Below, piece by piece: positions 3,318 to 36,512 of a DNA stretch of 36,512 bases. The position numbers were made by a program, and so were the translations under genes. The notes below the pieces were generated by a model. It made no database searches and was not told where the DNA came from. It saw nothing but the letters and a program-made list of their open reading frames with translations. Source of the DNA: a virus; the IMG/VR virus record IMGVR_UViG_3300020469_000117, positions 1 through 36,512 of that record. One strand, given 5' to 3'. How positions within the stretch are numbered: position 1 is the stretch's first letter; every line of letters begins with the position of its first letter.

Positions 3318-3988
3318 TTAAACTTTGATTTTTTTAGGTTCTGTTAGTTTGTATCTCTTTAAAACCTCTTGGATTTGCTCTTTACTAGCAACATCTCGTT
3401 TAATTTTAACTTTGCTGTCCCAAGGGAAAGGCATTAATTCTTTAGGTTTAAGTCGATGTTTCGAGTGAGGTACTATACAACTGTGTACTATCATTCTAGT
3501 TTGTTCCCATCTGTTTTGAGAAAGCTGTTCGTTGTACTTTCTGAAGCCTCTTATTTTGTTGTCTAAGGAACGTGGGGTCAAATCATATAATTCTGAATCA
3601 CTTAACCCCAACATTCCCAATCCAACTTCTTCTAACTTATCCCAATTTACTTCACCTGTATCTTCATCAATAATATCCTCTCCCTCTTCTACTTTCCCTT
3701 TTTCTGAGGTTGGTCTAATTGGAACGCTTCAAAGATTTCATTTATCTTACCGAAATCTTCATTGTCTATCCATTGTTCAATATCTCGAACTTTGTACTTA
3801 AACTCTTCTCCGTTCTTCTTAGCACCATACTTTAGACCATAGTAGGCTATAATACCTATGTGATCTACCTCAGTACCCAACTTTTGCATTTCATCTAACT
3901 TTAACTTACAATCGTTACAGATGTCTTTTAAAGCTAAATAACTAAATCTAATCGGTCGTTTCTGACCGCCTATTTCTACCTTTTTCAT
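3318..3988 (-). CDS. gpGT-like tail assembly chaperone made by -1 frameshift (variant B T domain)
   Basis: The 99-codon gpG-like frame (3988-3692) ends at a TAG immediately after the heptamer G GGA AAG. In the -1 frame the sequence stays open from that point to 3318 and encodes VEEGED..., then WDKLEEVG, then a 100-residue basic C-terminal segment. The shifted product is about 223 residues. In lambda the same heptamer yields gpGT, whose T part recruits the tape measure protein while the G part coats it. Here the T part differs from the copy at 31269-31939, while the G part is nearly identical. The region downstream of the heptamer is open but lacks its own obvious start until about 3620, which supports frameshifting over separate initiation. 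Confidence 0.85.
3689..3988 (-). CDS. gpG-like tail assembly chaperone, 99 aa
   Basis: Small, charged, helical protein in the position of lambda gpG, between the tail tube genes and the tape measure. It begins with MKKVEIGGQKRPIRFSYLAL and ends QKKGK at a TAG directly abutting the slippery heptamer. It is the unshifted product of the G/GT pair and would bind the tape measure protein during tail assembly without entering the virion (known for lambda, inferred here). It differs from the copy at 31640-31939 by one residue near the C-terminus (AFQL versus AFQF), because the long repeat begins inside this gene at 3747. Confidence 0.87.
   Translation of the reverse strand: MKKVEIGGQKRPIRFSYLALKDICNDCKLKLDEMQKLGTEVDHIGIIAYYGLKYGAKKNGEEFKYKVRDIEQWIDNEDFGKINEIFEAFQLDQPQKKGK
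3692..3698 (-). other. Programmed -1 frameshift slippery heptamer GGGAAAG
   Basis: On the minus strand the zero-frame codons read AAG GGA AAG TAG, giving the canonical X XXY YYZ heptamer G GGA AAG, which is the sequence lambda uses for G/GT. The stop codon immediately follows. The -1 frame is open for 124 more codons. The overlapping A AAG GGA also fits the heptamer rule. Confidence 0.87.
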
Positions 3989-4017
3989 TTTTTGTTACCT
4001 TTTTAATTTAAATTGAT

Positions 4018-5748
4018 TTATAAAACTTTCTTTAGTGATATTGAACTAAGCCAAATTGTAGTGTTACTTGTACCATCACCACCTCTAACAATTTCAAGGC
4101 TCTGCATTTCAGGATATAACAAAACTGAGTGTGTTCCTGGTGTTGATGGAATTAATAAATGTATATCAGGACTTGCTGACCACCCTCTATCTACTGTTAA
4201 AAAACCTGTTGGACTTGGAGAACTTGAAATAGTATAAGTTAAAAGGTAATAATCACCGCTACCACTCATTATATCCGGAGTGGCAATTTGTGTAGTAGCA
4301 CCTGTTGTAATTATTTTACCATAACCATCTTCAACAATACTAGAGCCACCCGACAAAGTCCAATAACTAGGGTCATCAAACCCTGTATCACCAATCAACT
4401 CAGGACCAAGTCCATTTGGATAGATATTACCTGTGCCTGTAAATGTAGCTGAACAAGTTAGATTATCCTCAACACCAGCATCAAAACTTACCGATGATAC
4501 AAGTGCGTTTCCTTGCCAATGTGTAATATCGGTAGGGTCTTGATAATCGGTTGCTTCATTAGTTTGTTCAATTTGCCAAGATGAGGTAAATATTTTGTTT
4601 GAACTTTGAGCTTCAGATAAACCAGGATATAATGTAAATCGAACATCTGCTGTATTACTTGAAATTTTAATTGGATTTGAAAATTCAATAACTACTCTAC
4701 ACCAAGTTGTATCCAATCCCTCTATTTTAAAGTGATTTGCGTTTGCTGTATAGTCTGATATAGATTCTGAGCCATTACCACCAATTATTTTTGTTGTAAA
4801 AGGATTTACTCTATTTGAGCCGCTCATTTCATTTAAACCAAACATAAAAAACGTTGCTTTTGTTGTTGAGCCATCACCTCTAACATAAAAAGACCAAGAA
4901 AGTTTTTTACCTTCTAATCTTGGACCTCCAATAGTGTACAGTAATTTATCTTGATTAGCAGAAGTTGACTCTATACTAGATGCAGTATTACCTCCAATTT
5001 CAGGTGGACTAGCTTGTAAATTAACTTGTGTTATGTTTTCAGTAGTAAACCCATCTACCCCGCTTTGAGTAAAGTTAGTGCGTATAATGTTTCTAATTCT
5101 ATCAGAAAAACTTAAATTAACTAAACTTCTTGCTTGTAGTTTATCGAAAAAATCAGTACCATCTAAAGGTACATCCGGATTAATTGATTGTAATATATCA
5201 GTAGATACTTCAAAAGACTTTAAACCACCCAAAGACTCAGAGTACCCCCCTGAATCCTTGTTGGTTACATCTCTTAAATCCATATTTACGCTAAACGAAG
5301 CTGATGTACTAAAAGCTACAGGGTCAAATATTGCTGATGAACCTGGTGTGATTATCTCTATAATAACAGCATCCTCATTAAAAGTAGCAGTACCATCTGA
5401 AAATCCTAATGTAGGTACAATTCCATTTGCTCCGTTTGTTACATCAACATATTTGTATAAATTATTTGATGGGTCGGTAGCAACAGAAGTAACAGTATAG
5501 CCAAAGCTAGAGTTTAACATATTCTTTGTTAAATCTAAAATGCTTTGACCTGTATTGCTAATTCCTGATACAATTTGATTATCCGTAATAACACCACTAG
5601 CGTTAGTAATGTTACTAAGTAAAATATTCTCACCCGATGTAAAATCAATTAATGGGACGGCAGCCAATACCCTAATCCTAGTCTTTTGTGGAGCAGGGTC
5701 AGTCGTCTTAGCATATACCAATAAATCCGAAGCGTTTTGAATTGCCAT
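4018..5748 (-). CDS. Tail tube paralogue with two inserted domains and a C-terminal CBM-like domain, 576 aa
   Basis: Parts of this protein align with the 134-aa tube protein just upstream: residues 1-15 (MAIQNASDLL / MAILNATDCV), 142-220 (DPVAFSTSASFSVNMDLRD, SLGGLKSFEVSTD) and 410-445 (WQGNALVSSVSFDAGVE). Between them lie two insertions, about 16-141 and 221-405. The second has the flavour of tail-fibre jelly-roll domains (LSWSFYVRGDG..., ending SSWQIEQTNEATDYQ). Residues 446-576 add a CBM-like domain (GPELIGDTGFDDPSYWTLSGG). I infer a tail-tube or tube-cap subunit carrying surface-exposed, possibly glycan-binding, domains. Whether it is a major or minor tube component cannot be told from sequence. 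A second, identical copy lies at 31969-33699. Confidence 0.75.
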   Translation of the reverse strand: MAIQNASDLLVYAKTTDPAPQKTRIRVLAAVPLIDFTSGENILLSNITNASGVITDNQIVSGISNTGQSILDLTKNMLNSSFGYTVTSVATDPSNNLYKYVDVTNGANGIVPTLGFSDGTATFNEDAVIIEIITPGSSAIFDPVAFSTSASFSVNMDLRDVTNKDSGGYSESLGGLKSFEVSTDILQSINPDVPLDGTDFFDKLQARSLVNLSFSDRIRNIIRTNFTQSGVDGFTTENITQVNLQASPPEIGGNTASSIESTSANQDKLLYTIGGPRLEGKKLSWSFYVRGDGSTTKATFFMFGLNEMSGSNRVNPFTTKIIGGNGSESISDYTANANHFKIEGLDTTWCRVVIEFSNPIKISSNTADVRFTLYPGLSEAQSSNKIFTSSWQIEQTNEATDYQDPTDITHWQGNALVSSVSFDAGVEDNLTCSATFTGTGNIYPNGLGPELIGDTGFDDPSYWTLSGGSSIVEDGYGKIITTGATTQIATPDIMSGSGDYYLLTYTISSSPSPTGFLTVDRGWSASPDIHLLIPSTPGTHSVLLYPEMQSLEIVRGGDGTSNTTIWLSSISLKKVL

Positions 5749-5772
5749 AATTAATGGATTTAAAAGTTAATA

Positions 5773-6177
5773 TTATGATTTAGATATTGCTCCTGAACCA
5801 GTTAAAGAGATTGAATAAGTTGCGTTTTCTTCTACTCCTGAATCTATTGAGATTGAAGTGATTAAAGCGTTACCTGTATATTCCATACCTGAAGCACCGA
5901 ATTTTATTGCTACTTCGTCTCTAGCTTCCCAAATAACAAAAAGTTCTTCAATGTCAGCAAATCCTGCAATATTACCTATTTCTACAAAGGCATCACTTGA
6001 TAATTCAAAAGAGCGTAATCCACCTAAATTAGATTGATAACCTAATGAAGATTTAGTTGTAGAATCACGAAGATCCATATTCATAGTTAGTGAAGCAGAA
6101 GTACAATGAGCTACTGGTTGTAAAGAACCTCCTGTTGTAACCGAAATTACACAATCTGTTGCGTTTAAAATTGCCAT
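5773..6177 (-). CDS. Major tail tube protein, 134 aa
   Basis: Compact tube protein of the TP901-1 / lambda gpV type. It has an N-terminal beta strand region, then the PVAHCTSASLTMNMDLRDST and LGGLRSFELSSDAF segments, and closes with GNALITSISIDSGVEENATY and a Gly/Ser tail. The position, after the tail terminator and before the gpG chaperone block, is that of the major tube gene in siphophages. Subunits would stack as hexamers around the tape measure. The neighbouring 576-aa protein shares the same scaffold, so this is the plain version of a duplicated tube gene. Identical copy at 33724-34128. Confidence 0.82.
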   Translation of the reverse strand: MAILNATDCVISVTTGGSLQPVAHCTSASLTMNMDLRDSTTKSSLGYQSNLGGLRSFELSSDAFVEIGNIAGFADIEELFVIWEARDEVAIKFGASGMEYTGNALITSISIDSGVEENATYSISLTGSGAISKS

Positions 6178-6183
6178 TTTATT

Positions 6184-6594
6184 TTAGTTTTTAATTATTA
6201 GACAGTTAAAATTTATGTTTTTGTAGAATTTTTCAGGAGTCTTGAAATAGTCATCGTCTAAATCTAAAAACCTGAATTTAGCCGTGTAGCTTACACTATC
6301 TTCAGTATAAGTCACTTCAAACAAATCTAAGGCTTCTACAGCCGCCTTAGCTTGATCGTATGTTTTAGTGTAAGTGTCTGCAAAACAAGATATGCGAATT
6401 GATACATCACACGAGTTAAGCGATCCACCTTTAGATAAAAAGTTTGATACGTTAGTTATTTCAAACGTAGTGCAAGGATAAGCTACACCTTGTGGTATAA
6501 TAACAGGAAAAACCTTATCAACACCATTAGCTGCGGTAAAAGCAGGTGTTTCTTGTAATTGTTTAAATATTGATTTTCCTATTGCTGCAAACAT
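6184..6594 (-). CDS. Tail terminator-like protein (DUF3168), 136 aa
   Basis: Length and sequence fit the DUF3168 family: an N-terminal helix (IGKSIFKQLQETPAF), then VFPVIIPQGVAYPCTTFEI, and later DVSIRISCFADTYTKTYDQAKAAVEAL. Members of this family cap the tail tube and join it to the head (lambda gpU-like). It sits between the gp10-like completion gene and the tube gene, with 3-6 bp spacing, as in other HK97-type phages. Identical copy at 34135-34545. The family call is good and the exact role is inferred from position. Confidence 0.8.
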   Translation of the reverse strand: MFAAIGKSIFKQLQETPAFTAANGVDKVFPVIIPQGVAYPCTTFEITNVSNFLSKGGSLNSCDVSIRISCFADTYTKTYDQAKAAVEALDLFEVTYTEDSVSYTAKFRFLDLDDDYFKTPEKFYKNINFNCLIIKN

Positions 6595-6597
6595 ATC

Positions 6598-7089
6598 TTA
6601 TCTAAAACCTGATTGTTTTATCATTTTATCTAAAAGTTTACCTAAGTCTTTTTCTGCTTGGTTTAACACTCTTAAATTTACTTTATTAGCTGCCTCTAAA
6701 AATATATCTTTTCTAGGCTTTTGTATCTTATTACCTAAAATTTGCATCTCAGTCAAGTTGTAACTATCTTTCCCCTTGACTCTGATTGGTGTTGTTCTTC
6801 TTTTTAAAGGACCAACAAATATACCTGGCTCTCTTGATTTTCTTGCAGTAAATATACCTATTGTTTTATAGGTTGGAGTTCTACCACTTTTTCTTTTGTA
6901 ATCAGAGTTACTGTTAAATTCTCTTTTGTACCCTCTTTGCATAGCCCTAGCAAGAATATTACCCGCAGGTCTTAAAGCTTTGTTTATTTGAGTTCTTTGT
7001 TGTCTAGGTTTAATACCTAGTTCAGACAAACTATTTTTAAGGCTATTAATTCCTTTTACTCTTATGCCATCTCTTTTCTTTATAGCCAT
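6598..7089 (-). CDS. HK97 gp10-like tail completion protein, 163 aa
   Basis: Basic protein beginning with a run of Lys/Arg (MAIKKRDGIRVKGINSLKN), followed by a long helix (QQRTQINKALRPAGNILARAM) and a central FVGPLKRR segment that is characteristic of the HK97 gp10 family. It helps complete the head-tail interface or tail. It is packed 2 bp after the joining-protein gene and 3 bp before the terminator gene, so it is translated within the same late message. Identical copy at 34549-35040. Confidence 0.83.
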   Translation of the reverse strand: MAIKKRDGIRVKGINSLKNSLSELGIKPRQQRTQINKALRPAGNILARAMQRGYKREFNSNSDYKRKSGRTPTYKTIGIFTARKSREPGIFVGPLKRRTTPIRVKGKDSYNLTEMQILGNKIQKPRKDIFLEAANKVNLRVLNQAEKDLGKLLDKMIKQSGFR

Positions 7090-7091
7090 AA

Positions 7092-7466
7092 CTATATTGG
7101 TGAGGTGGTTGGTAAATCTTGCTTTACAAAAAGTTGTATGTATTCTTTTCTTGGATCAATAGCAAAACCAGTTATTTCATATATATCTGTAGTTTCTACA
7201 TCTTCAATAATCCAATTAGATTTTATAGTTTTTGTTTCACTTGAGTATCTTATAGTAAAAACAAATCGACCATAAGATTGTAACTCATCTCCTTCAAACT
7301 TCTCTTCAATGTTTCTAAGGGTCTTAATATTTAAATTAGCCCATACAGTTGCGTGGTCTGTAAAAACAGGTGTAAAGCCACCAAATACATCTTGATTTGA
7401 AGATATAGATTTTAACTTAATACGAGTGTTAAAGTCACCTGCCTTTAATTCAGATAAAAAAGCCAT
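7092..7466 (-). CDS. Head-tail joining protein (SPP1 gp16 / HK97 type), 124 aa
   Basis: Recognisable as the Phage_H_T_join type: ELKAGDFNTRIKLKS near the start, then DVFGGFTPVFTDHATVWANL, and a beta-rich C-terminal half (NWIIEDVETTDIYEITGFAIDP). These proteins form the stopper or closure ring below the connector. It is placed exactly where expected, 3 bp after the gp6-like connector and 2 bp before gp10. Identical copy at 35043-35417. Confidence 0.86.
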   Translation of the reverse strand: MAFLSELKAGDFNTRIKLKSISSNQDVFGGFTPVFTDHATVWANLNIKTLRNIEEKFEGDELQSYGRFVFTIRYSSETKTIKSNWIIEDVETTDIYEITGFAIDPRKEYIQLFVKQDLPTTSPI

Positions 7467-7469
7467 ATA

Positions 7470-8144
7470 CTATAGATAACATTTATAAGGTTGTAATAAT
7501 ATCTCAGAAGCCATTGGAAACGCTCTCTTGCGATCCTCTCTGAAATAATACATATCACTTGCAATTAATTTAATAGCTTGTTTGATGGCATCAGGAATAC
7601 TAGCTGCACCATCTGCTATACCTGTATGAAATTGAAAATAATATATTCCATCAGTTGTTCCATTTAAATCTCCTGTGCCTATTGCATCAGAAGGTGTTGT
7701 AGTCATCTTTACCTGACAAGGGTTAGTATTTTGATTTGAATACCAATTCGTGTTGGCAAACAAAGTGTAAGTAGAACCTACAGCAGCTAAGTAGTGTAAA
7801 CCATCTTTAGCATTATCATTTCCCGCAGGATAATTAAACTTACAATCAGGGTAATATAAACTAAATGTATTAGGCAATTCATTAAACCAAAGTTTGTACT
7901 TAGCTGTAATAAAGTGTCTGTTACAATAGTGTTCAGCCATTTGAGTCGCAGCACTTATATATGTAGCTAACAAAGCGTCCTCATCAGAACTGTCAATTCT
8001 AAGTTGAGCCTTTAACTCAGCAGTTGTAACAACTTGAGTAGTAGGGTATTCTGCTAGTACTAAATTCCCATATCTATTTTGACTTGGGTTTAGATACTCG
8101 TAGTTACCTTTGTTAAACAAATTATCTAAGTGCGATATAGCCAT
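7470..8144 (-). CDS. gp6-like head-tail connector, 224 aa
   Basis: The N-terminal half carries the signature of the phiE125 gp8 / HK97 gp6 connector family: VTTAELKAQLRIDSSDEDALLATYISAATQMAEHYCNR (residues ~38-75), a helical region that packs under the portal. The C-terminus ends with a helix (AIKQAIKLIASDMYYFREDR), as in homologues. A beta-rich segment of about 90 residues between these parts makes it longer than many gp6 proteins. It follows the capsid gene after a hairpin-containing gap. Identical copy at 35421-36095. Confidence 0.86.
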   Translation of the reverse strand: MAISHLDNLFNKGNYEYLNPSQNRYGNLVLAEYPTTQVVTTAELKAQLRIDSSDEDALLATYISAATQMAEHYCNRHFITAKYKLWFNELPNTFSLYYPDCKFNYPAGNDNAKDGLHYLAAVGSTYTLFANTNWYSNQNTNPCQVKMTTTPSDAIGTGDLNGTTDGIYYFQFHTGIADGAASIPDAIKQAIKLIASDMYYFREDRKRAFPMASEILLQPYKCYL

Positions 8145-8167
8145 TTTGGTCTTTTATAAAGAAAAGG

Positions 8168-8187
8168 GAAAGGGGATTAACCCTTTC
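8168..8187 (-). terminator. Hairpin after the major capsid gene
   Basis: On the minus strand GAAAGGG pairs with CCCTTTC (8187-8181 with 8174-8168) around a 6-base loop, 24 bases past the capsid stop, followed by the pyrimidine-rich CCTTTTCTTT. The uridine tract is imperfect, so it may act as an attenuator that keeps capsid mRNA abundant relative to the genes below. It recurs at 36119-36138. Confidence 0.55.
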
Positions 8188-8210
8188 GCCTTTCTAATTA
8201 ATTTAATCTA

Positions 8211-9485
8211 CTATGCTGGAGCAACCGCTTTAACAGCAGCTTCTTTTCCTGAAGATTGTGCAATCAAACCATCAAGTAAAGTAGAAAGTACTAAAGAAGT
8301 ACCACCACTTAAAGACTGAGAGTAAGGATCAACTAAAATATCAAGACCACCGAACATAGCCATATGAACTTTTTCCATATCTAACAATAACGCTCTTGCT
8401 CTAGAAGCAGAGTTTCCGTCAGAACCTACGTTATCTGAAATAGCGTAAGGGATATTAAGAACAGTTCTATCAACTAAGTTCATAGAAGCAGCATTAAATG
8501 CAGAACCATCTTTAGCAGCGATTTGAGCAGTTAAGTCAGCATAAGCATCACCATTCAATAGTAATTTAACTGAAGGCTTGTTTACATCGTTTGACTGAGA
8601 AATCATTTTGCTAAACATAGACTGAATAGTTGCAAGTGCAGTAGAGCTAGTCCAAGACTGAGTACCTGCTGTATAAGCAACACCATCAGCAAAAATAGAA
8701 GTTGGTCCTTGTGCAGCATCTCCACTTACTAATAAGTTCTTTTCAAATTGAGCCATAATAGCTGTTGCAAAGTTTCTTCTGAAAGCAGCCTCAATAGAAG
8801 CGTTTTGAGCTAAAGCAGCGTTAGAAACATTAGTTGCAGCAACAATAGTGCTTGGGTTTAATTGACCACCACCAATAGTACCTGCAGCAGGTTGTGCAAC
8901 AGAACCATCTTCAGGAATAAAACCTGCAGTAATTCCTGCTACGATTGGAATTTTTTGAGAAGCAGAAACACCTGTGTACATTGTAGCACCATTTCCAACT
9001 AATACAGAAGCAGCAAACATATCATCTACGAAAGACTTAACCTCTACTGGTTGAGAGTTAGAAGTTAAAGCAGTATTTGCACGAGATTCCAAAGCAGAGT
9101 GAGGAATAGCCACACCTTTAAAGTTTTGAGAAGGATTCTCGTTACGAGCCTCTTGATCCATTTCACGAACAAGACCTTCAACACGACCTGTTTTTGCAGC
9201 ATTAAAAGCTTCTACAAAAGAAAAACCTCTTAATTCTTTAGAATCAGAAACATTTTGAGTTCCGTGAGAAACAGGTATAGAAGCTGCTTCAGCGTTCAAT
9301 TTTTCTTGACGTTCAACTACCTCAATGTCTTTAGCTAGTTTGTCAATGTTAGTCATCATACCATCGTATGATACTTGCTCGTCAGCAGTAAAGTCACGAG
9401 CCTCATCTTTTGCCAAGGTTAATAGAGTGTTTGCGTTTTCAATTGCAGTAGCTCTCTCTTGACGAATTTCAATCGAATTTTTCAT
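8211..9485 (-). CDS. HK97-fold major capsid protein, 424 aa (variant A)
   Basis: Classic HK97-family capsid precursor. Residues 1-~100 form a charged helical delta/scaffold region (RQERATAIENANTLLTLAKDEARDFTADE, then TNIDKLAKDIEVVERQE). The shell domain follows (VEVKSFVDDMFAASVLV, PIVAGITAGFIPEDGSVAQP, SVKLLLNGDAYADL). The upstream protease gene is expected to remove the delta domain, with cleavage near residue ~100-130 inferred. The ATG overlaps the protease stop by 4 bp. The 3' end from 8366 down lies in the long repeat. Upstream of that the copy at the right edge of the window differs at about 7% of bases. Confidence 0.95.
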   Translation of the reverse strand: MKNSIEIRQERATAIENANTLLTLAKDEARDFTADEQVSYDGMMTNIDKLAKDIEVVERQEKLNAEAASIPVSHGTQNVSDSKELRGFSFVEAFNAAKTGRVEGLVREMDQEARNENPSQNFKGVAIPHSALESRANTALTSNSQPVEVKSFVDDMFAASVLVGNGATMYTGVSASQKIPIVAGITAGFIPEDGSVAQPAAGTIGGGQLNPSTIVAATNVSNAALAQNASIEAAFRRNFATAIMAQFEKNLLVSGDAAQGPTSIFADGVAYTAGTQSWTSSTALATIQSMFSKMISQSNDVNKPSVKLLLNGDAYADLTAQIAAKDGSAFNAASMNLVDRTVLNIPYAISDNVGSDGNSASRARALLLDMEKVHMAMFGGLDILVDPYSQSLSGGTSLVLSTLLDGLIAQSSGKEAAVKAVAPA

Positions 9486-10690
9486 ATTCGTTTTTTTAAT
9501 TTTAATTCATTACTTAATAAATTTAACTTTGAATCATCAAATGATTCCTCAACCTTTTGCTCCACTTCTTCAACTTGAGGGGTTTCTTCTACAGTTGCTT
9601 CCATCTCGAAAGTTTCTTTAGAACGAAGGGCAACATCCGTGTTTGCGTAAGCGCCTACACCGACAATAGAAACGTCAACAAGTCGACCAATTTTTTTAAT
9701 TTCTCTTCTTGTTACATCTCCATCTTTACTCCAATCATCCTCTTCTACTGTAAAAGCAAATGAAGATTCATAAAGTAAACCTCTTTTCATTAATTCTGCT
9801 ACATCATTACCAGTTGTTGTATTAGGTAAAGTTGCATCGTATCGCAATCCTCTTTCATCAACTGATAATTGTAAAGTACCACCCATATTTCTATCTAATA
9901 TTAAATTAGCATCGTGGTTGAAAGTTAAGATTACATTATCTTCTAATCGACCATCAAAAGCTCGTTTAGAAATCGTTTCTCTAAAGCCTAAATCTCTACT
10001 ATCAGTATCGAACAAGGCAGCGTAACCACTAACTCTAGTTTCTTTTGAATCTTCATCCAATCGAATCTCGTAGTTACCATTATAAATTCTAGTTTCTTTA
10101 TTTTCCATAATATATCTATTATTTTTCTCATCCTTATCATCGTCTTTTGAGCCATACATATTTTCATCAACTTGACCCATCACTTCTTTTGCTTGTTCGT
10201 GATTTTCAAAAGGCATATAATATGTTTCTCCATCCATTGTGTGTTCGTGATAACCACTTCCACCAAGTTCTTGAGCTTGTAGTTCAGCTTCTTTTATAGA
10301 GTCATATAATGGTAATTCTATACCATCATTTATCATTGCACCTACTTTCATTCTGTTTTCCTCTTCTCTAGCTATCTCTTTAACTTTTTTCTTAGACCAA
10401 CTAAATCCTGCGTTTCCTCCCCATAAAGCCCACGCTATTCTCCAAGCTGTAGGTCCACCATCATTTTCTTTAGCAGAATAGTGTTTAGCCTTGTTGTTTT
10501 CGTGTCTACTAAAAAAACTAAACATTCTTTTAATACTTGAGATACTTAAATTACCATTGATTATATCTCTAGCACGAGAAACTCCTGTTTGAGTTCCACC
10601 TCTACCATATTCCTTTCTCCATTCTAAGCCCTTACGAGCCTCTTCTCTCATTCCATTAGTAGGAGTAGTATTTATGTCTTTTAGTGCCAC
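9482..10690 (-). CDS. HK97-type prohead maturation protease with an extra N-terminal domain, 402 aa
   Basis: Residues ~200-360 are an S78-type prohead protease: RVSGYAALFDTDSRDLGFRETI, the catalytic His in ILTFNHD (H259) and the Ser in LYESSFAF (S309/S310). It would cleave the capsid delta domain inside the prohead. Residues 1-~110 form a separate domain (MREEARKGLEWRKEYGRGGT, later GPTAWRIAWALWGGNAG) that is also found in other phage maturation proteins. Residues ~115-175 hold a further YHEHTMDGETYYMPF segment. The frame starts with GTG, sharing its first base with the portal stop. An internal ATG at 10108 (residue 195) could yield the protease domain alone. Confidence 0.9.
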   Translation of the reverse strand: MALKDINTTPTNGMREEARKGLEWRKEYGRGGTQTGVSRARDIINGNLSISSIKRMFSFFSRHENNKAKHYSAKENDGGPTAWRIAWALWGGNAGFSWSKKKVKEIAREEENRMKVGAMINDGIELPLYDSIKEAELQAQELGGSGYHEHTMDGETYYMPFENHEQAKEVMGQVDENMYGSKDDDKDEKNNRYIMENKETRIYNGNYEIRLDEDSKETRVSGYAALFDTDSRDLGFRETISKRAFDGRLEDNVILTFNHDANLILDRNMGGTLQLSVDERGLRYDATLPNTTTGNDVAELMKRGLLYESSFAFTVEEDDWSKDGDVTRREIKKIGRLVDVSIVGVGAYANTDVALRSKETFEMEATVEETPQVEEVEQKVEESFDDSKLNLLSNELKLKKRI

Positions 10691-11943
10691 TATATATCTT
10701 GTCTTGAAGTAGCTTCGCCTAAACTATCTAAAGGCATCATATTACTTTGCATATAAACATTTTCACTTGGTCCACCCATAGAGTTCATATCTTCAAAAGC
10801 TCTAACCTCATCAGGTGAGATAACACCAATGTTTACAAGTGTTCTATAGTAGTCTGCTCTTGACTTAGAGTCACCTCTTAGAAGGGCAGTTAAATTAAAT
10901 TTAAAATATTGTGAACCTTTCTTATTGAAAGGAATTAATTTTTGATTTAAAGCCATCTCAATACGCTTAATCCAAGGTGTGATAGTGTGTACCACAAAGT
11001 CGATTTGCTGTGCTTCTATGTTAGAATATGTAGCTCTACTAAGATCGTTTACGAGGTGATTAGGCACTCTAAAAACACGACAAATATCACTAATTTGATA
11101 TTGTCTAGTTTCTAAAAATTGTGCTTGATTGTTTGGAATCTGTCGGCTCATAAATTCCATTCCTTCTTCAAGTATTGCAGTTTTACCTGCGTTGATTGAG
11201 CCACTATAAGTTTGATTCCAACTAGCTCGTAATCTTTTGGCTGTTTCAGGTTTAAGTGTTCCTGGGTGTTTAAGAATACCACCTACTGATGCTCCGTTCT
11301 TAAAGAACGAACCTGCAAATTGTTCGATAGATAAAGATATACCTAAAGACTCTGCTGCACTTTGTATTGGTGACTTACCCATTACTCCATCACAAGACAA
11401 TCCTTTTATGTGGATCATATTTTCTGAAGTAACTTTTCCTGTGATTGGATAAGGTATAGTTTCGTTTTGTTCTATCTCGTAATAAACTTCTCTACCATCA
11501 GGCGATACATAAACACTTACATCATCACATTGGATAGGGATTATTTGAGTAGGTAGACCTCCGTTATTTCTTTCTATGTAAGCAAAGAAGTTTCCATCTA
11601 GGCAAAGGTCTACTAAGGCTCTTTCAAAAAAGCTAAAAGAGTTGTAGAGAGTTGAAGGTTGCTCTCCTACTAAAGAGTGAAGTGGATTATCAGATAAAAT
11701 ATATCTCTTGTTATCTGAGTCTTTTTCGTATAACGAGATAGGTAGAGAAGCTATTGTTTCAGAGATTACTTTTACACAACTCCAAACTGTTGAAAGCTGT
11801 AGAGAGCGTTCTTTTGAAATTGGTTGATTAGATGAGTTGCCCATTATTGAAGCGTTCCCATATAAACTCGTATTGTAAAACCTTTCCTCTTGGTTAGGTT
11901 GTACTTGAGGTTTTCTTCTAAAAAAATCTAAAAATGTAGCCAA
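10690..11943 (-). CDS. HK97-family portal protein, 417 aa
   Basis: Portal dodecamer subunit through which DNA is packaged and ejected. Family features include the N-terminal STVWSCVKVISETIASLPISLYEKD segment, the wing region with FAYIERNNGGLPTQIIPI, the GKSPIQSAAESLGIS segment and the C-terminal crown helix (LSRATYSNIEAQQIDFVVHTITPWIKRIE). Length is normal for the family. It is preceded by a 65-bp gap from the sigma-like gene and overlaps the protease start by one base. It lies wholly outside the long repeat, so only one copy is present. Confidence 0.94.
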   Translation of the reverse strand: MATFLDFFRRKPQVQPNQEERFYNTSLYGNASIMGNSSNQPISKERSLQLSTVWSCVKVISETIASLPISLYEKDSDNKRYILSDNPLHSLVGEQPSTLYNSFSFFERALVDLCLDGNFFAYIERNNGGLPTQIIPIQCDDVSVYVSPDGREVYYEIEQNETIPYPITGKVTSENMIHIKGLSCDGVMGKSPIQSAAESLGISLSIEQFAGSFFKNGASVGGILKHPGTLKPETAKRLRASWNQTYSGSINAGKTAILEEGMEFMSRQIPNNQAQFLETRQYQISDICRVFRVPNHLVNDLSRATYSNIEAQQIDFVVHTITPWIKRIEMALNQKLIPFNKKGSQYFKFNLTALLRGDSKSRADYYRTLVNIGVISPDEVRAFEDMNSMGGPSENVYMQSNMMPLDSLGEATSRQDI

Positions 11944-14690: not shown

Positions 14691-14786
14691 CCCTTTTCCT
14701 GGTGAGGGAATTCCCCTATGCCTCTTCCCCCTGAAAAGGGCTACCCCCACAACCCCTTTTCTATTGACAGCACTTACAGAAAGGGG
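14691..14786. repeat. G/C-rich island with nested inverted repeats
   Basis: CCCTTTTC (14691-14698) pairs with GAAAAGGG (14733-14740). The interval contains the perfect palindrome GGGAATTCCC (14706-14715). A second pair, CCCCTTT (14753-14759) and AAAGGGG (14780-14786), follows, and a run of G continues to about 14791. Composition is strikingly unlike the flanking A/T-rich DNA. Confidence 0.55.
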
Positions 14787-28355: not shown

Positions 28356-29066
28356 TTATGCTAATATTAATTTAGCACCATAAATCACTTGATTTGTGGC
28401 AGTTGTTACTACTGTTATTGAAACATAGTTTGTTGAAGTTGATGGTAGTGGGCTTTTACCAACACTAACAGTTTTTGTTGTGTCACCAATAGCGACACCT
28501 TGAGTTGATCCATTAGTATAATCTACTACGCTTAAAGTTGTTGTTAATCTATCACTTGCAAAGACTTGAAATGCTGAAACACTTTTACCTTCAGGTATAG
28601 GTATCATAGCAAACAATTCGCAATCTGATTCAACTACTCGAACACCTAATGTACTTTTACCGTCATCTTCTATAACAGCAAAGTTTAAAGACCTACTATC
28701 GTCATTAGACATAAATTGTGTTGGTAGTATTTTTAACTCACTACCATATACACCGCCGTCTTTACCATTAGCACCAGTAGCCCCATCACTACCTGCTTGT
28801 CCTTGTATACCTTGTGGTCCTTGTGGACCTGTATCGCCTTTAGCACCATCACCTACTTCAGCAGTTAAGTATCTTCTTATCTCATCAAACTCTTCTTGCA
28901 TTTGCTGCAACTGATATATTAAAGCACCAAACTCAGGGTTTACGTCTTGTTCATCAAGATCTAATAAAGTATTAATGTGACCATCATCAAACTTTTGTTT
29001 TAGACTAAGTTTATCGTTACCAGTCTTAGTGTGAAATGATTCGTACTTTTTATTCTCTAAAGGCAT
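28356..29066 (-). CDS. Collagen-like tail protein, 236 aa
   Basis: Residues 72-104 form about 11 Gly-x-y triplets (GDGAKGDTGPQGPQG, IQGQAGSDG...), which fold as a collagen triple helix and trimerise tail fibres. Upstream is a helical head (FGALIYQLQQMQEEFDEIRRYL), probably a coiled-coil trimerisation and docking part. Downstream, residues ~108-236, is a beta-rich end (TLSVVDYTNGSTQGVAIGDTTKTV). It would be a trimeric tail appendage. No equivalent gene sits between tape measure and tail protein in the variant B module at the left edge. Confidence 0.78.
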   Translation of the reverse strand: MPLENKKYESFHTKTGNDKLSLKQKFDDGHINTLLDLDEQDVNPEFGALIYQLQQMQEEFDEIRRYLTAEVGDGAKGDTGPQGPQGIQGQAGSDGATGANGKDGGVYGSELKILPTQFMSNDDSRSLNFAVIEDDGKSTLGVRVVESDCELFAMIPIPEGKSVSAFQVFASDRLTTTLSVVDYTNGSTQGVAIGDTTKTVSVGKSPLPSTSTNYVSITVVTTATNQVIYGAKLILA

Positions 29067-29077: not shown

Positions 29078-31267
29078 TTAAAATGGTGTATTTCTAAAAG
29101 TACCTCCAATTAAATCTGCACCTTTTTGAGTGGCTGTTTGTTGACCTTGTAAAGCAGCAATCTGAATACCCTCTGATGATAAGAAACCTGTTACAGTTAT
29201 ATTTTGTCCGAACCCACCATTAGGTATAATTGTTCCTGCTTGATTTGGAACAAATAATTCAGGTCCTTTTTCCCCAACTAAAGACATTCTACCTACAGGT
29301 GGTTGACCTCCGTTGGCAAAACCTTGTATTCCACTTGAACCTCTAAAGCCACCCATTAATATACTTGCAAAAGAACTACCAAAACCACCACCTGAAAAAC
29401 CTGTTGCTTTAGCAGCTCCCTCAGGAGCAAGACCTAAAGCACTTAATATACCTGCTAAAACAGCAGCTTTAACAACTGCCGCAGCTATTTGTTTTATTAA
29501 ATCTTTAAATATATTACCTAACTTTGTAATTGAAAGTTCTCCACTAACAAGCATATCACCAAAAGAGTCTGTAAAAGTTATAGCTACACCAGTAGCAAAA
29601 TCTTCTAATGGTTGTTTTAATTCTTGTATTCTAGCGGCTAAATCTTCTATTTGTTGTTGTCTTGTATCTATTAATCCAGTTAAAGGGTCTTCTGATCCAA
29701 CAGACGATACTTGTGAAACAGAATCTAAAGATATACCGGATACTTTTGCTCTTGAAGTTGGTTTTGTTGAAGCTTCTTGATTTAAAAAAGGAACTGGAAA
29801 CGAATTTAAAGCTTTAGCTTGTTGCTCTGTAAGAACTTTAGTTTCTCCTAAACTTTTATTAAATTTATTATTAGCTTCTGTAGCGTCATCTGTATTTGTA
29901 GTAAAAGCGTATATCGCTGAACCTAACGCAAGAACTCCAACTACAACTGCTGTTACAGGGTTTGCTATCATAGCGGCTGTCAATGCTCTAAAAGCACCTG
30001 TCATAGCACCTATCATTCCGTTTGCAATAAACCCTGCTTTAGTTAATCTAACTACAGCCGTTGTAAGGCTAACAATTCCTGGGACAACTATAGGTCCTAT
30101 TGTTTTTGCAAAGAAACTAAAAACACCTTTAATAGGAATAAAAGCAGCAGAAAGTAAACTTAAACTTAATAGTAACGGTCCTAGTAAAGCAGCAAAAGCA
30201 CCAAATTGTATTACAAGTTGTTTAGTTCCGTCATCTAAATTACTAAACTCACTTGCTAAATCTGTAATTTTTTCAATCATTGGAGTAAGTGCATCTGCTA
30301 ATAATCCACCTATCTCCTCTTTCATTCCTTCTATTGCAGAGTTCATAAGTTTAATCTTATGCTCTGTGGTGTCCTCCATTATAGCAGACATTTTATCTAA
30401 CTCGTCTGTATTATTTCTGAAAGATTGAGTTAATTCATTTACCTTATCTTGCTGATTTGCAAGTATAAGTAATTGATTTGCACCAGTTCGACCTACTAAT
30501 TCAGTAGCATCATTTAAACTCATTGTGCCATTCGCAAGTTGGCTTAAGGTGTGTGAAAATGGTATACCTTCCTCGTTTAACTTACTGAAAGCTGTCCGAA
30601 GTCCTGTACCTGCTTTACTTGCCTTGATACCATTATCCATCAAGACACCCATCATCGCAGCAAGTTCATTTATATCGACACCAACTGCATTAGCGGCTGT
30701 ACCTGCGTGACCAAAGGCTGTAGCAAATGTACTTAATTGTATAGAGGAATTAGCAGAGGCACTTGCTAATGTGTTTGCTACATCTTTCGCATCGGTAGCT
30801 TCTAAGTTAAATGCGTTTATAGAACTAGATACAACATCAGCAGCTAAACTTAAATCTTCACCAGTAGCAATAGCTAACTTAGAAACAGCACCTGTCATAT
30901 CGACTATAGCTTGAGGATTAAATCCTTTTCTACCTAAAACTAATTGAAGGTCAGCAAACTCTTGTGCTGTAAATCGTGTTGTCTTACCTAAATCTCTTGC
31001 ATTTTGTTCTAATAACTTAAATTCTTCAGCAGTAGCACCAGTAACGGCTTGTACTTTAGCCATTCCTGCTTCAAAATTAACAAATGTGTCTAAAGCTGAT
31101 TTACCTAAAGCTGCTAAAGGTGCTGTTATACCAAATGTTAAAGTTGAACCTACTCTTGCAGCGTTTGATGCAAATGATGTAATTGATTTGTTAGCTTTAC
31201 CAAGACTTGCCTCTAATCCTTTAATATTAGCAGCTACAATTATTGATATAGTTTTTACTCCACCCAT
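29078..31267 (-). CDS. Tail tape measure protein, 729 aa (variant A)
   Basis: TP901-type tape measure with the same N-terminal core as the 691-aa copy (MGGVKTISIIVAANIKGLEAS, AVTGATAEEFKLLEQ, GVLMDNGIKASKAGTGLR) and a transmembrane-like region at about residues 350-460 (FGAFAALLGPLLLSLSLLSAA, IANPVTAVVVGVLALGSAIYAF). The stretch from there to ~600 is different from variant B. The C-terminus is again similar (GGQPPVGRMSLVGEKGPELFVP). It follows the gpGT frame by 1 bp. The length difference between the two variants, 38 residues, lies mainly in the middle. Confidence 0.93.
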   Translation of the reverse strand: MGGVKTISIIVAANIKGLEASLGKANKSITSFASNAARVGSTLTFGITAPLAALGKSALDTFVNFEAGMAKVQAVTGATAEEFKLLEQNARDLGKTTRFTAQEFADLQLVLGRKGFNPQAIVDMTGAVSKLAIATGEDLSLAADVVSSSINAFNLEATDAKDVANTLASASANSSIQLSTFATAFGHAGTAANAVGVDINELAAMMGVLMDNGIKASKAGTGLRTAFSKLNEEGIPFSHTLSQLANGTMSLNDATELVGRTGANQLLILANQQDKVNELTQSFRNNTDELDKMSAIMEDTTEHKIKLMNSAIEGMKEEIGGLLADALTPMIEKITDLASEFSNLDDGTKQLVIQFGAFAALLGPLLLSLSLLSAAFIPIKGVFSFFAKTIGPIVVPGIVSLTTAVVRLTKAGFIANGMIGAMTGAFRALTAAMIANPVTAVVVGVLALGSAIYAFTTNTDDATEANNKFNKSLGETKVLTEQQAKALNSFPVPFLNQEASTKPTSRAKVSGISLDSVSQVSSVGSEDPLTGLIDTRQQQIEDLAARIQELKQPLEDFATGVAITFTDSFGDMLVSGELSITKLGNIFKDLIKQIAAAVVKAAVLAGILSALGLAPEGAAKATGFSGGGFGSSFASILMGGFRGSSGIQGFANGGQPPVGRMSLVGEKGPELFVPNQAGTIIPNGGFGQNITVTGFLSSEGIQIAALQGQQTATQKGADLIGGTFRNTPF

Positions 31268-31268
31268 T

Positions 31269-31939
31269 TTATAACTTGATTTGTTTAGGTTCTGTTAGTT
31301 TGTATCTTTCTAAAACCTTTTGAATATGCTCTTTACTAGCAACATCTTTTTTAACTTTAATTTTATTGTCCCAAGGGAAAGGCATTAATTCTTTTGGTTT
31401 AAGTTTTTGTTTTGAATGAGGTGCTATAGTGCTGTGAACTATTAATCTTGTTCGTTCCCAAGCGTTCTGAGAAACTTTTTCATTGTAGTTCTTAAAACCT
31501 ATTAGCTTGTTGTGAAAGGAACGTGGAGTGTGATCATATAAGTCATCATAATTTAACCCCAACATTCCAAATCCAACTTCCTCTAACTTATCCCAATTTA
31601 TCTCACCTGAATCTTCATCAATAACATCCTCTCCCTCTTCTACTTTCCCTTTTTCTGTGGTTGGTCAAATTGAAACGCTTCAAAGATTTCATTTATTTTA
31701 CCGAAATCTTCATTGTCTATCCATTGTTCAATATCTCGAACTTTGTACTTAAACTCTTCTCCGTTCTTCTTAGCACCATACTTTAGACCATAGTAGGCTA
31801 TAATACCTATGTGATCTACCTCAGTACCCAACTTTTGCATTTCATCTAACTTTAACTTACAATCGTTACAGATGTCTTTTAAAGCTAAATAACTAAATCT
31901 AATCGGTCGTTTCTGACCGCCTATTTCTACCTTTTTCAT
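31269..31939 (-). CDS. gpGT-like tail assembly chaperone made by -1 frameshift (variant A T domain)
   Basis: Same organisation as 3318-3988: 99 codons, then the heptamer G GGA AAG at 31649-31643, then TAG. The -1 frame is open through VEEGEDVIDEDSGEI and WDKLEEVGFGMLGLNYDDLYD to 31269, giving about 223 residues. The T part is homologous to but clearly diverged from the left copy (YDDLYDHTPRSFHNKLIGF here, DSELYDLTPRSLDNKIRGF there). The match to the tape measure variant beside it suggests that T and tape measure travel together. Confidence 0.85.
31640..31939 (-). CDS. gpG-like tail assembly chaperone, 99 aa
   Basis: Second copy of the unshifted product, identical to the left copy except F for L near the C-terminus. 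Most of the gene lies within the long repeat (31698 onward), and only its last ~19 codons show the variant A base changes. Confidence 0.87.
   Translation of the reverse strand: MKKVEIGGQKRPIRFSYLALKDICNDCKLKLDEMQKLGTEVDHIGIIAYYGLKYGAKKNGEEFKYKVRDIEQWIDNEDFGKINEIFEAFQFDQPQKKGK
31643..31649 (-). other. Programmed -1 frameshift slippery heptamer GGGAAAG (second copy)
   Basis: Same heptamer, frame and adjacent TAG as at 3692-3698. It is conserved although it lies outside the identical block, in a stretch where neighbouring bases differ between the two variants. Confidence 0.87.
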
Positions 31940-31968
31940 TTTTTGTTACCTTTTTAATTTAAATTGAT

Positions 31969-33699
31969 TTATAAAACTTTCTTTAGTGATATTGAACTAA
32001 GCCAAATTGTAGTGTTACTTGTACCATCACCACCTCTAACAATTTCAAGGCTCTGCATTTCAGGATATAACAAAACTGAGTGTGTTCCTGGTGTTGATGG
32101 AATTAATAAATGTATATCAGGACTTGCTGACCACCCTCTATCTACTGTTAAAAAACCTGTTGGACTTGGAGAACTTGAAATAGTATAAGTTAAAAGGTAA
32201 TAATCACCGCTACCACTCATTATATCCGGAGTGGCAATTTGTGTAGTAGCACCTGTTGTAATTATTTTACCATAACCATCTTCAACAATACTAGAGCCAC
32301 CCGACAAAGTCCAATAACTAGGGTCATCAAACCCTGTATCACCAATCAACTCAGGACCAAGTCCATTTGGATAGATATTACCTGTGCCTGTAAATGTAGC
32401 TGAACAAGTTAGATTATCCTCAACACCAGCATCAAAACTTACCGATGATACAAGTGCGTTTCCTTGCCAATGTGTAATATCGGTAGGGTCTTGATAATCG
32501 GTTGCTTCATTAGTTTGTTCAATTTGCCAAGATGAGGTAAATATTTTGTTTGAACTTTGAGCTTCAGATAAACCAGGATATAATGTAAATCGAACATCTG
32601 CTGTATTACTTGAAATTTTAATTGGATTTGAAAATTCAATAACTACTCTACACCAAGTTGTATCCAATCCCTCTATTTTAAAGTGATTTGCGTTTGCTGT
32701 ATAGTCTGATATAGATTCTGAGCCATTACCACCAATTATTTTTGTTGTAAAAGGATTTACTCTATTTGAGCCGCTCATTTCATTTAAACCAAACATAAAA
32801 AACGTTGCTTTTGTTGTTGAGCCATCACCTCTAACATAAAAAGACCAAGAAAGTTTTTTACCTTCTAATCTTGGACCTCCAATAGTGTACAGTAATTTAT
32901 CTTGATTAGCAGAAGTTGACTCTATACTAGATGCAGTATTACCTCCAATTTCAGGTGGACTAGCTTGTAAATTAACTTGTGTTATGTTTTCAGTAGTAAA
33001 CCCATCTACCCCGCTTTGAGTAAAGTTAGTGCGTATAATGTTTCTAATTCTATCAGAAAAACTTAAATTAACTAAACTTCTTGCTTGTAGTTTATCGAAA
33101 AAATCAGTACCATCTAAAGGTACATCCGGATTAATTGATTGTAATATATCAGTAGATACTTCAAAAGACTTTAAACCACCCAAAGACTCAGAGTACCCCC
33201 CTGAATCCTTGTTGGTTACATCTCTTAAATCCATATTTACGCTAAACGAAGCTGATGTACTAAAAGCTACAGGGTCAAATATTGCTGATGAACCTGGTGT
33301 GATTATCTCTATAATAACAGCATCCTCATTAAAAGTAGCAGTACCATCTGAAAATCCTAATGTAGGTACAATTCCATTTGCTCCGTTTGTTACATCAACA
33401 TATTTGTATAAATTATTTGATGGGTCGGTAGCAACAGAAGTAACAGTATAGCCAAAGCTAGAGTTTAACATATTCTTTGTTAAATCTAAAATGCTTTGAC
33501 CTGTATTGCTAATTCCTGATACAATTTGATTATCCGTAATAACACCACTAGCGTTAGTAATGTTACTAAGTAAAATATTCTCACCCGATGTAAAATCAAT
33601 TAATGGGACGGCAGCCAATACCCTAATCCTAGTCTTTTGTGGAGCAGGGTCAGTCGTCTTAGCATATACCAATAAATCCGAAGCGTTTTGAATTGCCAT
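31969..33699 (-). CDS. Tail tube paralogue with inserted domains, 576 aa (second copy)
   Basis: Identical in sequence to 4018-5748, where the domain layout is described (tube scaffold at 1-15, 142-220 and 410-445, two inserts, C-terminal CBM-like domain). It lies wholly inside the repeat, so it gives no information on which variant it belongs to. Upstream is the plain tube gene and downstream the gpG gene, as in the left copy. Confidence 0.75.
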   Translation of the reverse strand: MAIQNASDLLVYAKTTDPAPQKTRIRVLAAVPLIDFTSGENILLSNITNASGVITDNQIVSGISNTGQSILDLTKNMLNSSFGYTVTSVATDPSNNLYKYVDVTNGANGIVPTLGFSDGTATFNEDAVIIEIITPGSSAIFDPVAFSTSASFSVNMDLRDVTNKDSGGYSESLGGLKSFEVSTDILQSINPDVPLDGTDFFDKLQARSLVNLSFSDRIRNIIRTNFTQSGVDGFTTENITQVNLQASPPEIGGNTASSIESTSANQDKLLYTIGGPRLEGKKLSWSFYVRGDGSTTKATFFMFGLNEMSGSNRVNPFTTKIIGGNGSESISDYTANANHFKIEGLDTTWCRVVIEFSNPIKISSNTADVRFTLYPGLSEAQSSNKIFTSSWQIEQTNEATDYQDPTDITHWQGNALVSSVSFDAGVEDNLTCSATFTGTGNIYPNGLGPELIGDTGFDDPSYWTLSGGSSIVEDGYGKIITTGATTQIATPDIMSGSGDYYLLTYTISSSPSPTGFLTVDRGWSASPDIHLLIPSTPGTHSVLLYPEMQSLEIVRGGDGTSNTTIWLSSISLKKVL

Positions 33700-33723
33700 A
33701 ATTAATGGATTTAAAAGTTAATA

Positions 33724-34128
33724 TTATGATTTAGATATTGCTCCTGAACCAGTTAAAGAGATTGAATAAGTTGCGTTTTCTTCTACTCCTGAATCTATTG
33801 AGATTGAAGTGATTAAAGCGTTACCTGTATATTCCATACCTGAAGCACCGAATTTTATTGCTACTTCGTCTCTAGCTTCCCAAATAACAAAAAGTTCTTC
33901 AATGTCAGCAAATCCTGCAATATTACCTATTTCTACAAAGGCATCACTTGATAATTCAAAAGAGCGTAATCCACCTAAATTAGATTGATAACCTAATGAA
34001 GATTTAGTTGTAGAATCACGAAGATCCATATTCATAGTTAGTGAAGCAGAAGTACAATGAGCTACTGGTTGTAAAGAACCTCCTGTTGTAACCGAAATTA
34101 CACAATCTGTTGCGTTTAAAATTGCCAT
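33724..34128 (-). CDS. Major tail tube protein, 134 aa (second copy)
   Basis: Identical to 5773-6177: same start, length and tube motifs. The two variants therefore share an unchanged tube while differing in the tape measure and distal tail protein. Confidence 0.82.
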   Translation of the reverse strand: MAILNATDCVISVTTGGSLQPVAHCTSASLTMNMDLRDSTTKSSLGYQSNLGGLRSFELSSDAFVEIGNIAGFADIEELFVIWEARDEVAIKFGASGMEYTGNALITSISIDSGVEENATYSISLTGSGAISKS

Positions 34129-34134
34129 TTTATT

Positions 34135-34545
34135 TTAGTTTTTAATTATTAGACAGTTAAAATTTATGTTTTTGTAGAATTTTTCAGGAGTCTTGAAATA
34201 GTCATCGTCTAAATCTAAAAACCTGAATTTAGCCGTGTAGCTTACACTATCTTCAGTATAAGTCACTTCAAACAAATCTAAGGCTTCTACAGCCGCCTTA
34301 GCTTGATCGTATGTTTTAGTGTAAGTGTCTGCAAAACAAGATATGCGAATTGATACATCACACGAGTTAAGCGATCCACCTTTAGATAAAAAGTTTGATA
34401 CGTTAGTTATTTCAAACGTAGTGCAAGGATAAGCTACACCTTGTGGTATAATAACAGGAAAAACCTTATCAACACCATTAGCTGCGGTAAAAGCAGGTGT
34501 TTCTTGTAATTGTTTAAATATTGATTTTCCTATTGCTGCAAACAT
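34135..34545 (-). CDS. Tail terminator-like protein (DUF3168), 136 aa (second copy)
   Basis: Identical to 6184-6594. Lies between the gp10-like and tube genes. Confidence 0.8.
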   Translation of the reverse strand: MFAAIGKSIFKQLQETPAFTAANGVDKVFPVIIPQGVAYPCTTFEITNVSNFLSKGGSLNSCDVSIRISCFADTYTKTYDQAKAAVEALDLFEVTYTEDSVSYTAKFRFLDLDDDYFKTPEKFYKNINFNCLIIKN

Positions 34546-34548
34546 ATC

Positions 34549-35040
34549 TTATCTAAAACCTGATTGTTTTATCATTTTATCTAAAAGTTTACCTAAGTCT
34601 TTTTCTGCTTGGTTTAACACTCTTAAATTTACTTTATTAGCTGCCTCTAAAAATATATCTTTTCTAGGCTTTTGTATCTTATTACCTAAAATTTGCATCT
34701 CAGTCAAGTTGTAACTATCTTTCCCCTTGACTCTGATTGGTGTTGTTCTTCTTTTTAAAGGACCAACAAATATACCTGGCTCTCTTGATTTTCTTGCAGT
34801 AAATATACCTATTGTTTTATAGGTTGGAGTTCTACCACTTTTTCTTTTGTAATCAGAGTTACTGTTAAATTCTCTTTTGTACCCTCTTTGCATAGCCCTA
34901 GCAAGAATATTACCCGCAGGTCTTAAAGCTTTGTTTATTTGAGTTCTTTGTTGTCTAGGTTTAATACCTAGTTCAGACAAACTATTTTTAAGGCTATTAA
35001 TTCCTTTTACTCTTATGCCATCTCTTTTCTTTATAGCCAT
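34549..35040 (-). CDS. HK97 gp10-like tail completion protein, 163 aa (second copy)
   Basis: Identical to 6598-7089, with the FVGPLKRR core and basic N-terminus. Confidence 0.83.
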   Translation of the reverse strand: MAIKKRDGIRVKGINSLKNSLSELGIKPRQQRTQINKALRPAGNILARAMQRGYKREFNSNSDYKRKSGRTPTYKTIGIFTARKSREPGIFVGPLKRRTTPIRVKGKDSYNLTEMQILGNKIQKPRKDIFLEAANKVNLRVLNQAEKDLGKLLDKMIKQSGFR

Positions 35041-35042
35041 AA

Positions 35043-35417
35043 CTATATTGGTGAGGTGGTTGGTAAATCTTGCTTTACAAAAAGTTGTATGTATTCTTTT
35101 CTTGGATCAATAGCAAAACCAGTTATTTCATATATATCTGTAGTTTCTACATCTTCAATAATCCAATTAGATTTTATAGTTTTTGTTTCACTTGAGTATC
35201 TTATAGTAAAAACAAATCGACCATAAGATTGTAACTCATCTCCTTCAAACTTCTCTTCAATGTTTCTAAGGGTCTTAATATTTAAATTAGCCCATACAGT
35301 TGCGTGGTCTGTAAAAACAGGTGTAAAGCCACCAAATACATCTTGATTTGAAGATATAGATTTTAACTTAATACGAGTGTTAAAGTCACCTGCCTTTAAT
35401 TCAGATAAAAAAGCCAT
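35043..35417 (-). CDS. Head-tail joining protein, 124 aa (second copy)
   Basis: Identical to 7092-7466. Confidence 0.86.
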   Translation of the reverse strand: MAFLSELKAGDFNTRIKLKSISSNQDVFGGFTPVFTDHATVWANLNIKTLRNIEEKFEGDELQSYGRFVFTIRYSSETKTIKSNWIIEDVETTDIYEITGFAIDPRKEYIQLFVKQDLPTTSPI

Positions 35418-35420
35418 ATA

Positions 35421-36095
35421 CTATAGATAACATTTATAAGGTTGTAATAATATCTCAGAAGCCATTGGAAACGCTCTCTTGCGATCCTCTCTGAAATAAT
35501 ACATATCACTTGCAATTAATTTAATAGCTTGTTTGATGGCATCAGGAATACTAGCTGCACCATCTGCTATACCTGTATGAAATTGAAAATAATATATTCC
35601 ATCAGTTGTTCCATTTAAATCTCCTGTGCCTATTGCATCAGAAGGTGTTGTAGTCATCTTTACCTGACAAGGGTTAGTATTTTGATTTGAATACCAATTC
35701 GTGTTGGCAAACAAAGTGTAAGTAGAACCTACAGCAGCTAAGTAGTGTAAACCATCTTTAGCATTATCATTTCCCGCAGGATAATTAAACTTACAATCAG
35801 GGTAATATAAACTAAATGTATTAGGCAATTCATTAAACCAAAGTTTGTACTTAGCTGTAATAAAGTGTCTGTTACAATAGTGTTCAGCCATTTGAGTCGC
35901 AGCACTTATATATGTAGCTAACAAAGCGTCCTCATCAGAACTGTCAATTCTAAGTTGAGCCTTTAACTCAGCAGTTGTAACAACTTGAGTAGTAGGGTAT
36001 TCTGCTAGTACTAAATTCCCATATCTATTTTGACTTGGGTTTAGATACTCGTAGTTACCTTTGTTAAACAAATTATCTAAGTGCGATATAGCCAT
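35421..36095 (-). CDS. gp6-like head-tail connector, 224 aa (second copy)
   Basis: Identical to 7470-8144. Last complete gene before the right edge. The capsid hairpin at 36119-36138 lies just upstream in transcription. Confidence 0.86.
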   Translation of the reverse strand: MAISHLDNLFNKGNYEYLNPSQNRYGNLVLAEYPTTQVVTTAELKAQLRIDSSDEDALLATYISAATQMAEHYCNRHFITAKYKLWFNELPNTFSLYYPDCKFNYPAGNDNAKDGLHYLAAVGSTYTLFANTNWYSNQNTNPCQVKMTTTPSDAIGTGDLNGTTDGIYYFQFHTGIADGAASIPDAIKQAIKLIASDMYYFREDRKRAFPMASEILLQPYKCYL

Positions 36096-36118
36096 TTTGG
36101 TCTTTTATAAAGAAAAGG

Positions 36119-36138
36119 GAAAGGGGATTAACCCTTTC
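36119..36138 (-). terminator. Hairpin after the major capsid gene (second copy)
   Basis: Same 7-bp stem and 6-base loop as at 8168-8187. Confidence 0.55.
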
Positions 36139-36161
36139 GCCTTTCTAATTAATTTAATCTA

Positions 36162-36512
36162 CTATGCTGGAGCAACCGCTTTAACAGCAGCTTCTTTTCC
36201 TGAAGATTGTGCAATCAAACCATCAAGTAAAGTAGAAAGTACTAAAGAAGTACCACCACTTAAAGACTGAGAGTAAGGATCAACTAAAATATCAAGACCA
36301 CCGAACATAGCCATATGTACTTTCTCCATATCTAACATTAACGCTCTTGCTCTTGAAGCAGAGTTAGCATCAGAACCTACGTTATCTGAAATAGCGTAAG
36401 GAATGTTAAGAACAGTTCTATCAACTAAGTTCATAGAAGCAGCATTGAAAGCAGAACCATCTTTAGCAGCGATTTGAGCAGCTAAGTCAGCATAAGCATC
36501 ACCATTCAATAA
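36162..36512 (-). CDS. Major capsid protein, C-terminal 116 codons (variant B), cut by the right edge
   Basis: The frame is open into the right end of the window (LLNGDAYADLAAQ...), so the true start lies outside. From 36317 down it is identical to the left copy. Above that, at about 93% base identity, there are substitutions such as T to A in DLTAQ, G to A in GSDGNS and L to M in ARALLLD. The differences include synonymous ones, so the second capsid gene is a genuine sister allele and not sequencing noise. Confidence 0.93.
   Translation of the reverse strand, partial: LLNGDAYADLAAQIAAKDGSAFNAASMNLVDRTVLNIPYAISDNVGSDANSASRARALMLDMEKVHMAMFGGLDILVDPYSQSLSGGTSLVLSTLLDGLIAQSSGKEAAVKAVAPA

Follow-up and report, generated by a model that had tools for sequence, protein, structure and literature searches.

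A viral record longer than its genome: a closed 27,951-bp siphophage and a sister strain joined through an exact repeat, best explained by an assembly path

How can one viral contig carry the same 4.6-kb block twice, one genome length apart, and end on both sides in the alleles of a second strain? The stretch of DNA analyzed here (hereafter the window) makes up the whole of an IMG/VR virus record (36,512 bp). Its layout might reflect a physical molecule, packaged or replicating, an integrated element, or the path taken by an assembler through two related genomes.

An exact repeat between two sets of alleles

Self-comparison of the window showed that the 4,620 bp at 3747-8366 recur without a single mismatch at 31698-36317, an offset of 27,951 bp. 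The bases flanking this shared block (R), 3746 and 8367, mismatch across the same offset, and the resulting exact direct repeat (2 x 4,620 bp) amounts to 25% of the 36,512 bp. Between the right flanks (8367-8561 versus 36318-36512), which extend to the contig end, 13 of 195 sites are different. On the left, there are 11 differences in the 146 sites adjoining R, and beyond these the identity of the flanks is 60-85%, declining through the tape measure gene to reach background left of position ~2200. The match of 4,620 bases beside a flank divergence of about 7% cannot be due to chance. Hence, the two phages, A and B, have either recently exchanged this tract or had near-identical tracts that were merged.

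The window can thus be divided into A-specific sequence (8367-31697), which together with one copy of R gives a closed genome of 27,951 bp, and two B alleles at the ends. The left one (1-3746) encodes a tape measure protein, a 100-aa ORF and a tail-tip protein truncated at the contig start, while the right one (36318-36512) is 195 bp within the major capsid gene, 93% identical to A. The first-pass annotation had described the block, its fixed offset, and outer flanks that are different alleles from the inner ones; all this was borne out, down to the exact coordinates. It had also counted 8.6 kb of a sister phage. The sister phage is indeed present, but merely 3,941 bp (3,746 + 195) are specific to B, as the other 4,620 bp are the shared block and are not assignable to B alone.

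The minus strand carries the structural genes (small and large terminase subunits, portal, protease, HK97-type capsid, head-tail, tail tube, tape measure, tail tip, and lysis), whereas the plus strand carries the early genes (exonuclease VIII-like, SSB, DnaB-like helicase, and Mom-like). The gene set of HK97-type cos siphophages is present in order, all on the minus strand: in A, the small (14054-14527, phrog_83) and large (12481-14064, phrog_9, E 5e-177) terminase subunits, the portal protein (10690-11943, phrog_12), and the head maturation protease (9482-10690, phrog_80), followed by the HK97-type major capsid protein (8211-9485, phrog_10) and the tape measure protein. Block R spans the C-terminal end of the capsid gene, within which its right edge (8366) lies, the head-tail and tail-tube genes, and part of a 99-aa ORF preceding the tape measure gene. 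A few other genes are worth mentioning. The terminase and portal genes are separated by a sigma-factor-like ORF (12009-12521) that has matches to region 2 and region 4 and shares some sequence with the end of the terminase ORF. The normal 134-aa tail tube gene is followed by one for a 576-aa protein (4018-5748) with a short tail-tube-like stretch, whose relatives are highly variable around 4047-4347. The Mom-like DNA modification protein (21199-21642) suggests that the phage DNA is modified.

The two phages differ most where the tail is specified. Their tape measure proteins (A, 29078-31267; B, 1241-3316, 691 aa; both on the minus strand and phrog_1533) are 48% identical, and the 100-aa ORF of B is 70% identical to its A counterpart. 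The tail-tip protein of A (24932-28354, minus strand, 1140 aa) is 24% identical in its N-terminal part to the B protein, of which the first 412 aa (2-1237, minus strand) are encoded before the gene runs off the contig. Since the whole ORF of the B-type protein has 980 aa in a relative (L142), the B gene is truncated at the contig start rather than short. In A, a gene for a collagen-like tail fibre (28356-29066, minus strand) lies between the tape measure and tail-tip genes; it is absent between the two genes in B.

Independent contigs match both sets of flanks. Near the block, L183 is 97-100% identical to the left B allele in most 100-bp steps, and its similarity extends ~130 bp into R. Two others, L191 and L192, cover the junction on the other side: they are ~99% identical to the last part of R together with the right B allele, and 98-99% identical to the right B allele itself. 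Both B junctions thus have a precedent. At the junction between R and the right-hand A sequence, L030 is 98-100% identical to the window from position 8067 on. Judging from these alignments, both flank types are real phage alleles. Furthermore, one sample (3300025168) holds both the A-like L030 and the B-like L183, and both contigs terminate inside the region matching R. Hence, sister alleles coexist in one sample and assemblies break in this region. The edges of the block lie in conserved sequence, where recombination and the merging of assembly graphs can both occur, and the assembler may have smoothed over small differences between the R copies of A and B. Biologically, these are mosaic sister phages that occur together and carry different tail-tip modules. 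Such a mosaic relation looks common in this phage group, as relatives show the same patchwork of identity. The repeat layout is not a family trait, since self-comparison of the fetched relatives revealed no further contig with a long direct repeat inside it (nine records compared half against half, the others as stretches rather than whole contigs).

One genome unit and its cos site

Seventeen distinct IMG/VR relative contigs begin at one identical base, corresponding to window position 14784 (L004, L010, L011, L018, L020, L026, L029, L033, L035, L038, L039, L043, L067, L072, L074, L079, and L089). A conserved [GC][TC]CAA motif follows this base at a distance of 16 bp, upstream of the terminase genes. 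Two relatives are assembled end to end in single contigs (G006, 28,798 bp; G007, 29,371 bp), and both miss the 9 bases CACCGCCCC that are present in the window at 14785-14793. The genome ends are thus fixed, with the left end of the relatives at 14784 and the right end at 14794 (14784-14794, minus strand). We interpret this as a cos site whose 3' overhang was presumably trimmed in library making. Contig ends alone can therefore locate cos in a family of uncultivated phages. At the end of another relative (L007), we observed a 93-bp perfect inverted repeat (1-93 and 891-983), which is probably an assembly fold-back.

A further relative, G004, is closed by a 123-bp end repeat, crosses cos, and has a genome of ~27,985 bp. 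The genomes of the relatives range from 27,985 to 29,380 bp, so that the 36.5-kb window exceeds one unit. Because end-to-end and circular relatives have a matching unit length, the 27,951-bp period is one whole genome, in agreement with the earlier claim of one closed genome of ~27.95 kb.

The window is continuous across 14784-14794, i.e., its cos ends are joined, which is equally expected of a plain circle. Since it reads through cos, it does not seem to be packaged virion DNA, and its length together with the internal cos makes a virion-packaged origin of the whole window unlikely. One such origin is headful packaging of more than one genome length, resulting in virion DNA with terminal redundancy, and the repeat close to both contig ends would fit it. 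We give this reading practically no chance: a headful (pac) phage is refuted by the fixed ends of 17 relatives, by the relatives of unit length assembled end to end, and by contig ends that lie in different alleles beyond the repeats.

Tandem prophages produce repeats at one-genome spacing, which counted for a tandem or decayed prophage in a host chromosome. Yet, no host sequence and no tRNA were seen in the window, no integrase family was found among the ORFs scanned, and the closest relatives are viral contigs. A search for the host using the terminase returned distant matches only (25-43% identical) in cellular genomes. We therefore dropped this reading, which we consider very improbable.

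Assembly path or fused molecule

The first-pass annotation had presented the order of the segments as exactly the product of one crossover, and had left the choice between a hetero-concatemer and a strain-merging assembly path. To compare the alternatives, we modeled the window as two separate molecules, a circle of A (27,951 bp) and a linear B (8,561 bp). Their k-mers, multiplicity included, are identical to those of the window for every tested k up to 4,621. Since the k-mer contents are equal, reads shorter than ~4.6 kb cannot separate the order B-shared-A-shared-B from two phages. Hence, one crossover is compatible with the data but is not the unique solution, and the k-mer test leaves the physical hybrid unneeded. 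Overall, the assembly path is favored.

A strain-merging assembly path is the best explanation of the window, and in our opinion a very probable one. Two sister cos-type siphophages, A and B, would have been present in one sample, with a 4.6-kb stretch either identical or near-identical and merged by the assembler. In the assembly graph, A would form a closed circle because reads cross its joined cos ends, and B would enter and exit the shared stretch, giving a graph with R as a node, the left B allele as entry, the right one as exit, and A as a loop back to R. The output of the assembler would then be the walk that uses every piece once: left B, R, A, R, right B. A walk of this kind is what an assembler gives where a loop, one entry, and one exit meet at a node shared by two strains; our literature search found no text stating that assemblers resolve such loops this way. 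The explanation builds on a repeat free of mismatches that is longer than short reads and spaced by one genome length, on flanks with different alleles, a unit length that agrees with relatives, the cos site, and a k-mer content equal to that of the two-molecule model. It supposes that the data are short reads and that the order was made by the walk rather than by a molecule.

Duplications attributed to assembly have been reported. A total of 290 IMG/VR contigs, of more than twice the expected length and with the same genome repeated, were considered "probably artifacts of metagenomic assembly" (PMC8116208). The same work, which describes CheckV, reports 6,543 end-repeat contigs with a duplication covering 20% or more of the contig, and attributes these to assemblers (PMC8116208). 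Simulations of metaSPAdes, IDBA_UD, and MEGAHIT treated regions shared between genomes as a cause of assembly breaks (PMC10914622).

The main competitor is a real intracellular hetero-concatemer, or co-integrate of A and B, in which a double infection and one homologous crossover inside R led to the sequencing of fused replicating genomes. One crossover in R between two circles does yield the observed order, and the phage encodes an exonuclease VIII-like recombination enzyme (17644-18393, plus strand, phrog_412), an SSB, and a T7 endonuclease I-like junction resolvase (23072-23467, minus strand, PF05367, E 1e-44). The joined cos crossed by the window indicates that replicative or ligated DNA was sampled, and real phage concatamers are found in fosmid libraries (PMC3861242). 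However, given the equality of k-mers, no feature of the contig requires a fused molecule, and the assembly of duplicated genome parts is documented in IMG/VR (PMC8116208). Recombinants would also be expected to make up a small share of the DNA, while a consensus contig should follow the dominant path. We therefore regard the hetero-concatemer as improbable.

Had the record been produced from long reads or from one cloned insert, its order would count as physical evidence, against the assembly reading; the 36.5 kb of the window fall within the 30-40 kb range of fosmid inserts. A further point against it is that exact searches with the window start and with a variable stretch inside R, among records from which near-identical ones may have been missing, found no contig with the rest of B and no other assembly with the same strain.

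Taken together, the repeat is confirmed, a closed genome accompanied by a sister strain is supported, and so is the assembly path as the best explanation. The finding matters mainly for data hygiene: users should handle the record as one complete 27,951-bp genome plus a fragment of a second strain, and gene counts or genome sizes drawn from it as is would be wrong. There is a small chance that the sequence comes from one real molecule, namely a concatemer formed inside a cell when homologous recombination in the 4.6-kb block joined two co-infecting sister phages that differ in their tail-tip modules. If so, it would catch recombination between co-infecting phages in a natural sample, a snapshot of the formation of mosaic phages, with a crossover region that separates the conserved head module from the exchangeable tail tip.

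Comparison with known contigs and phages

The biology behind the window is ordinary. A DNA search of phage records with block R gave no match. The concatenated contigs of IMG/VR resemble the window in having more than one genome length per contig and a large exact direct repeat, for which the authors blame assembly (PMC8116208). In contrast to them, the outer flanks of the window are alleles of a second strain, i.e., a strain-merging walk and not the plain repeat of a single genome. The phage concatamers in Mediterranean fosmids are also comparable, as these 30-40 kb inserts from the cellular fraction hold more than one phage genome with repeated ends and reflect real replication concatamers (PMC3861242). 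Yet, their end repeats are identical copies of one phage, whereas the ends of the window differ, and there is no sign that the window is a cloned insert.

At the level of the phage itself, Roseobacter phage CRP-406 (PV211008.1, 29.2 kb) has a similar layout of head, tail, and replication genes, but it is distant, as its capsid protein shares 29% identity across 72% of the length. The uncultivated cos-type siphophages of ~28-29 kb in IMG/VR (e.g., 3300030372_003021, 3300025873_000027, 3300017779_000110, and 3300030202_001703) share with the window the packaging genes, gene order, cos site, and unit length, and the terminases of the nearest relatives are 82-98% identical to that of the window. 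Unlike the window, the contigs of these phages carry a single genome unit.
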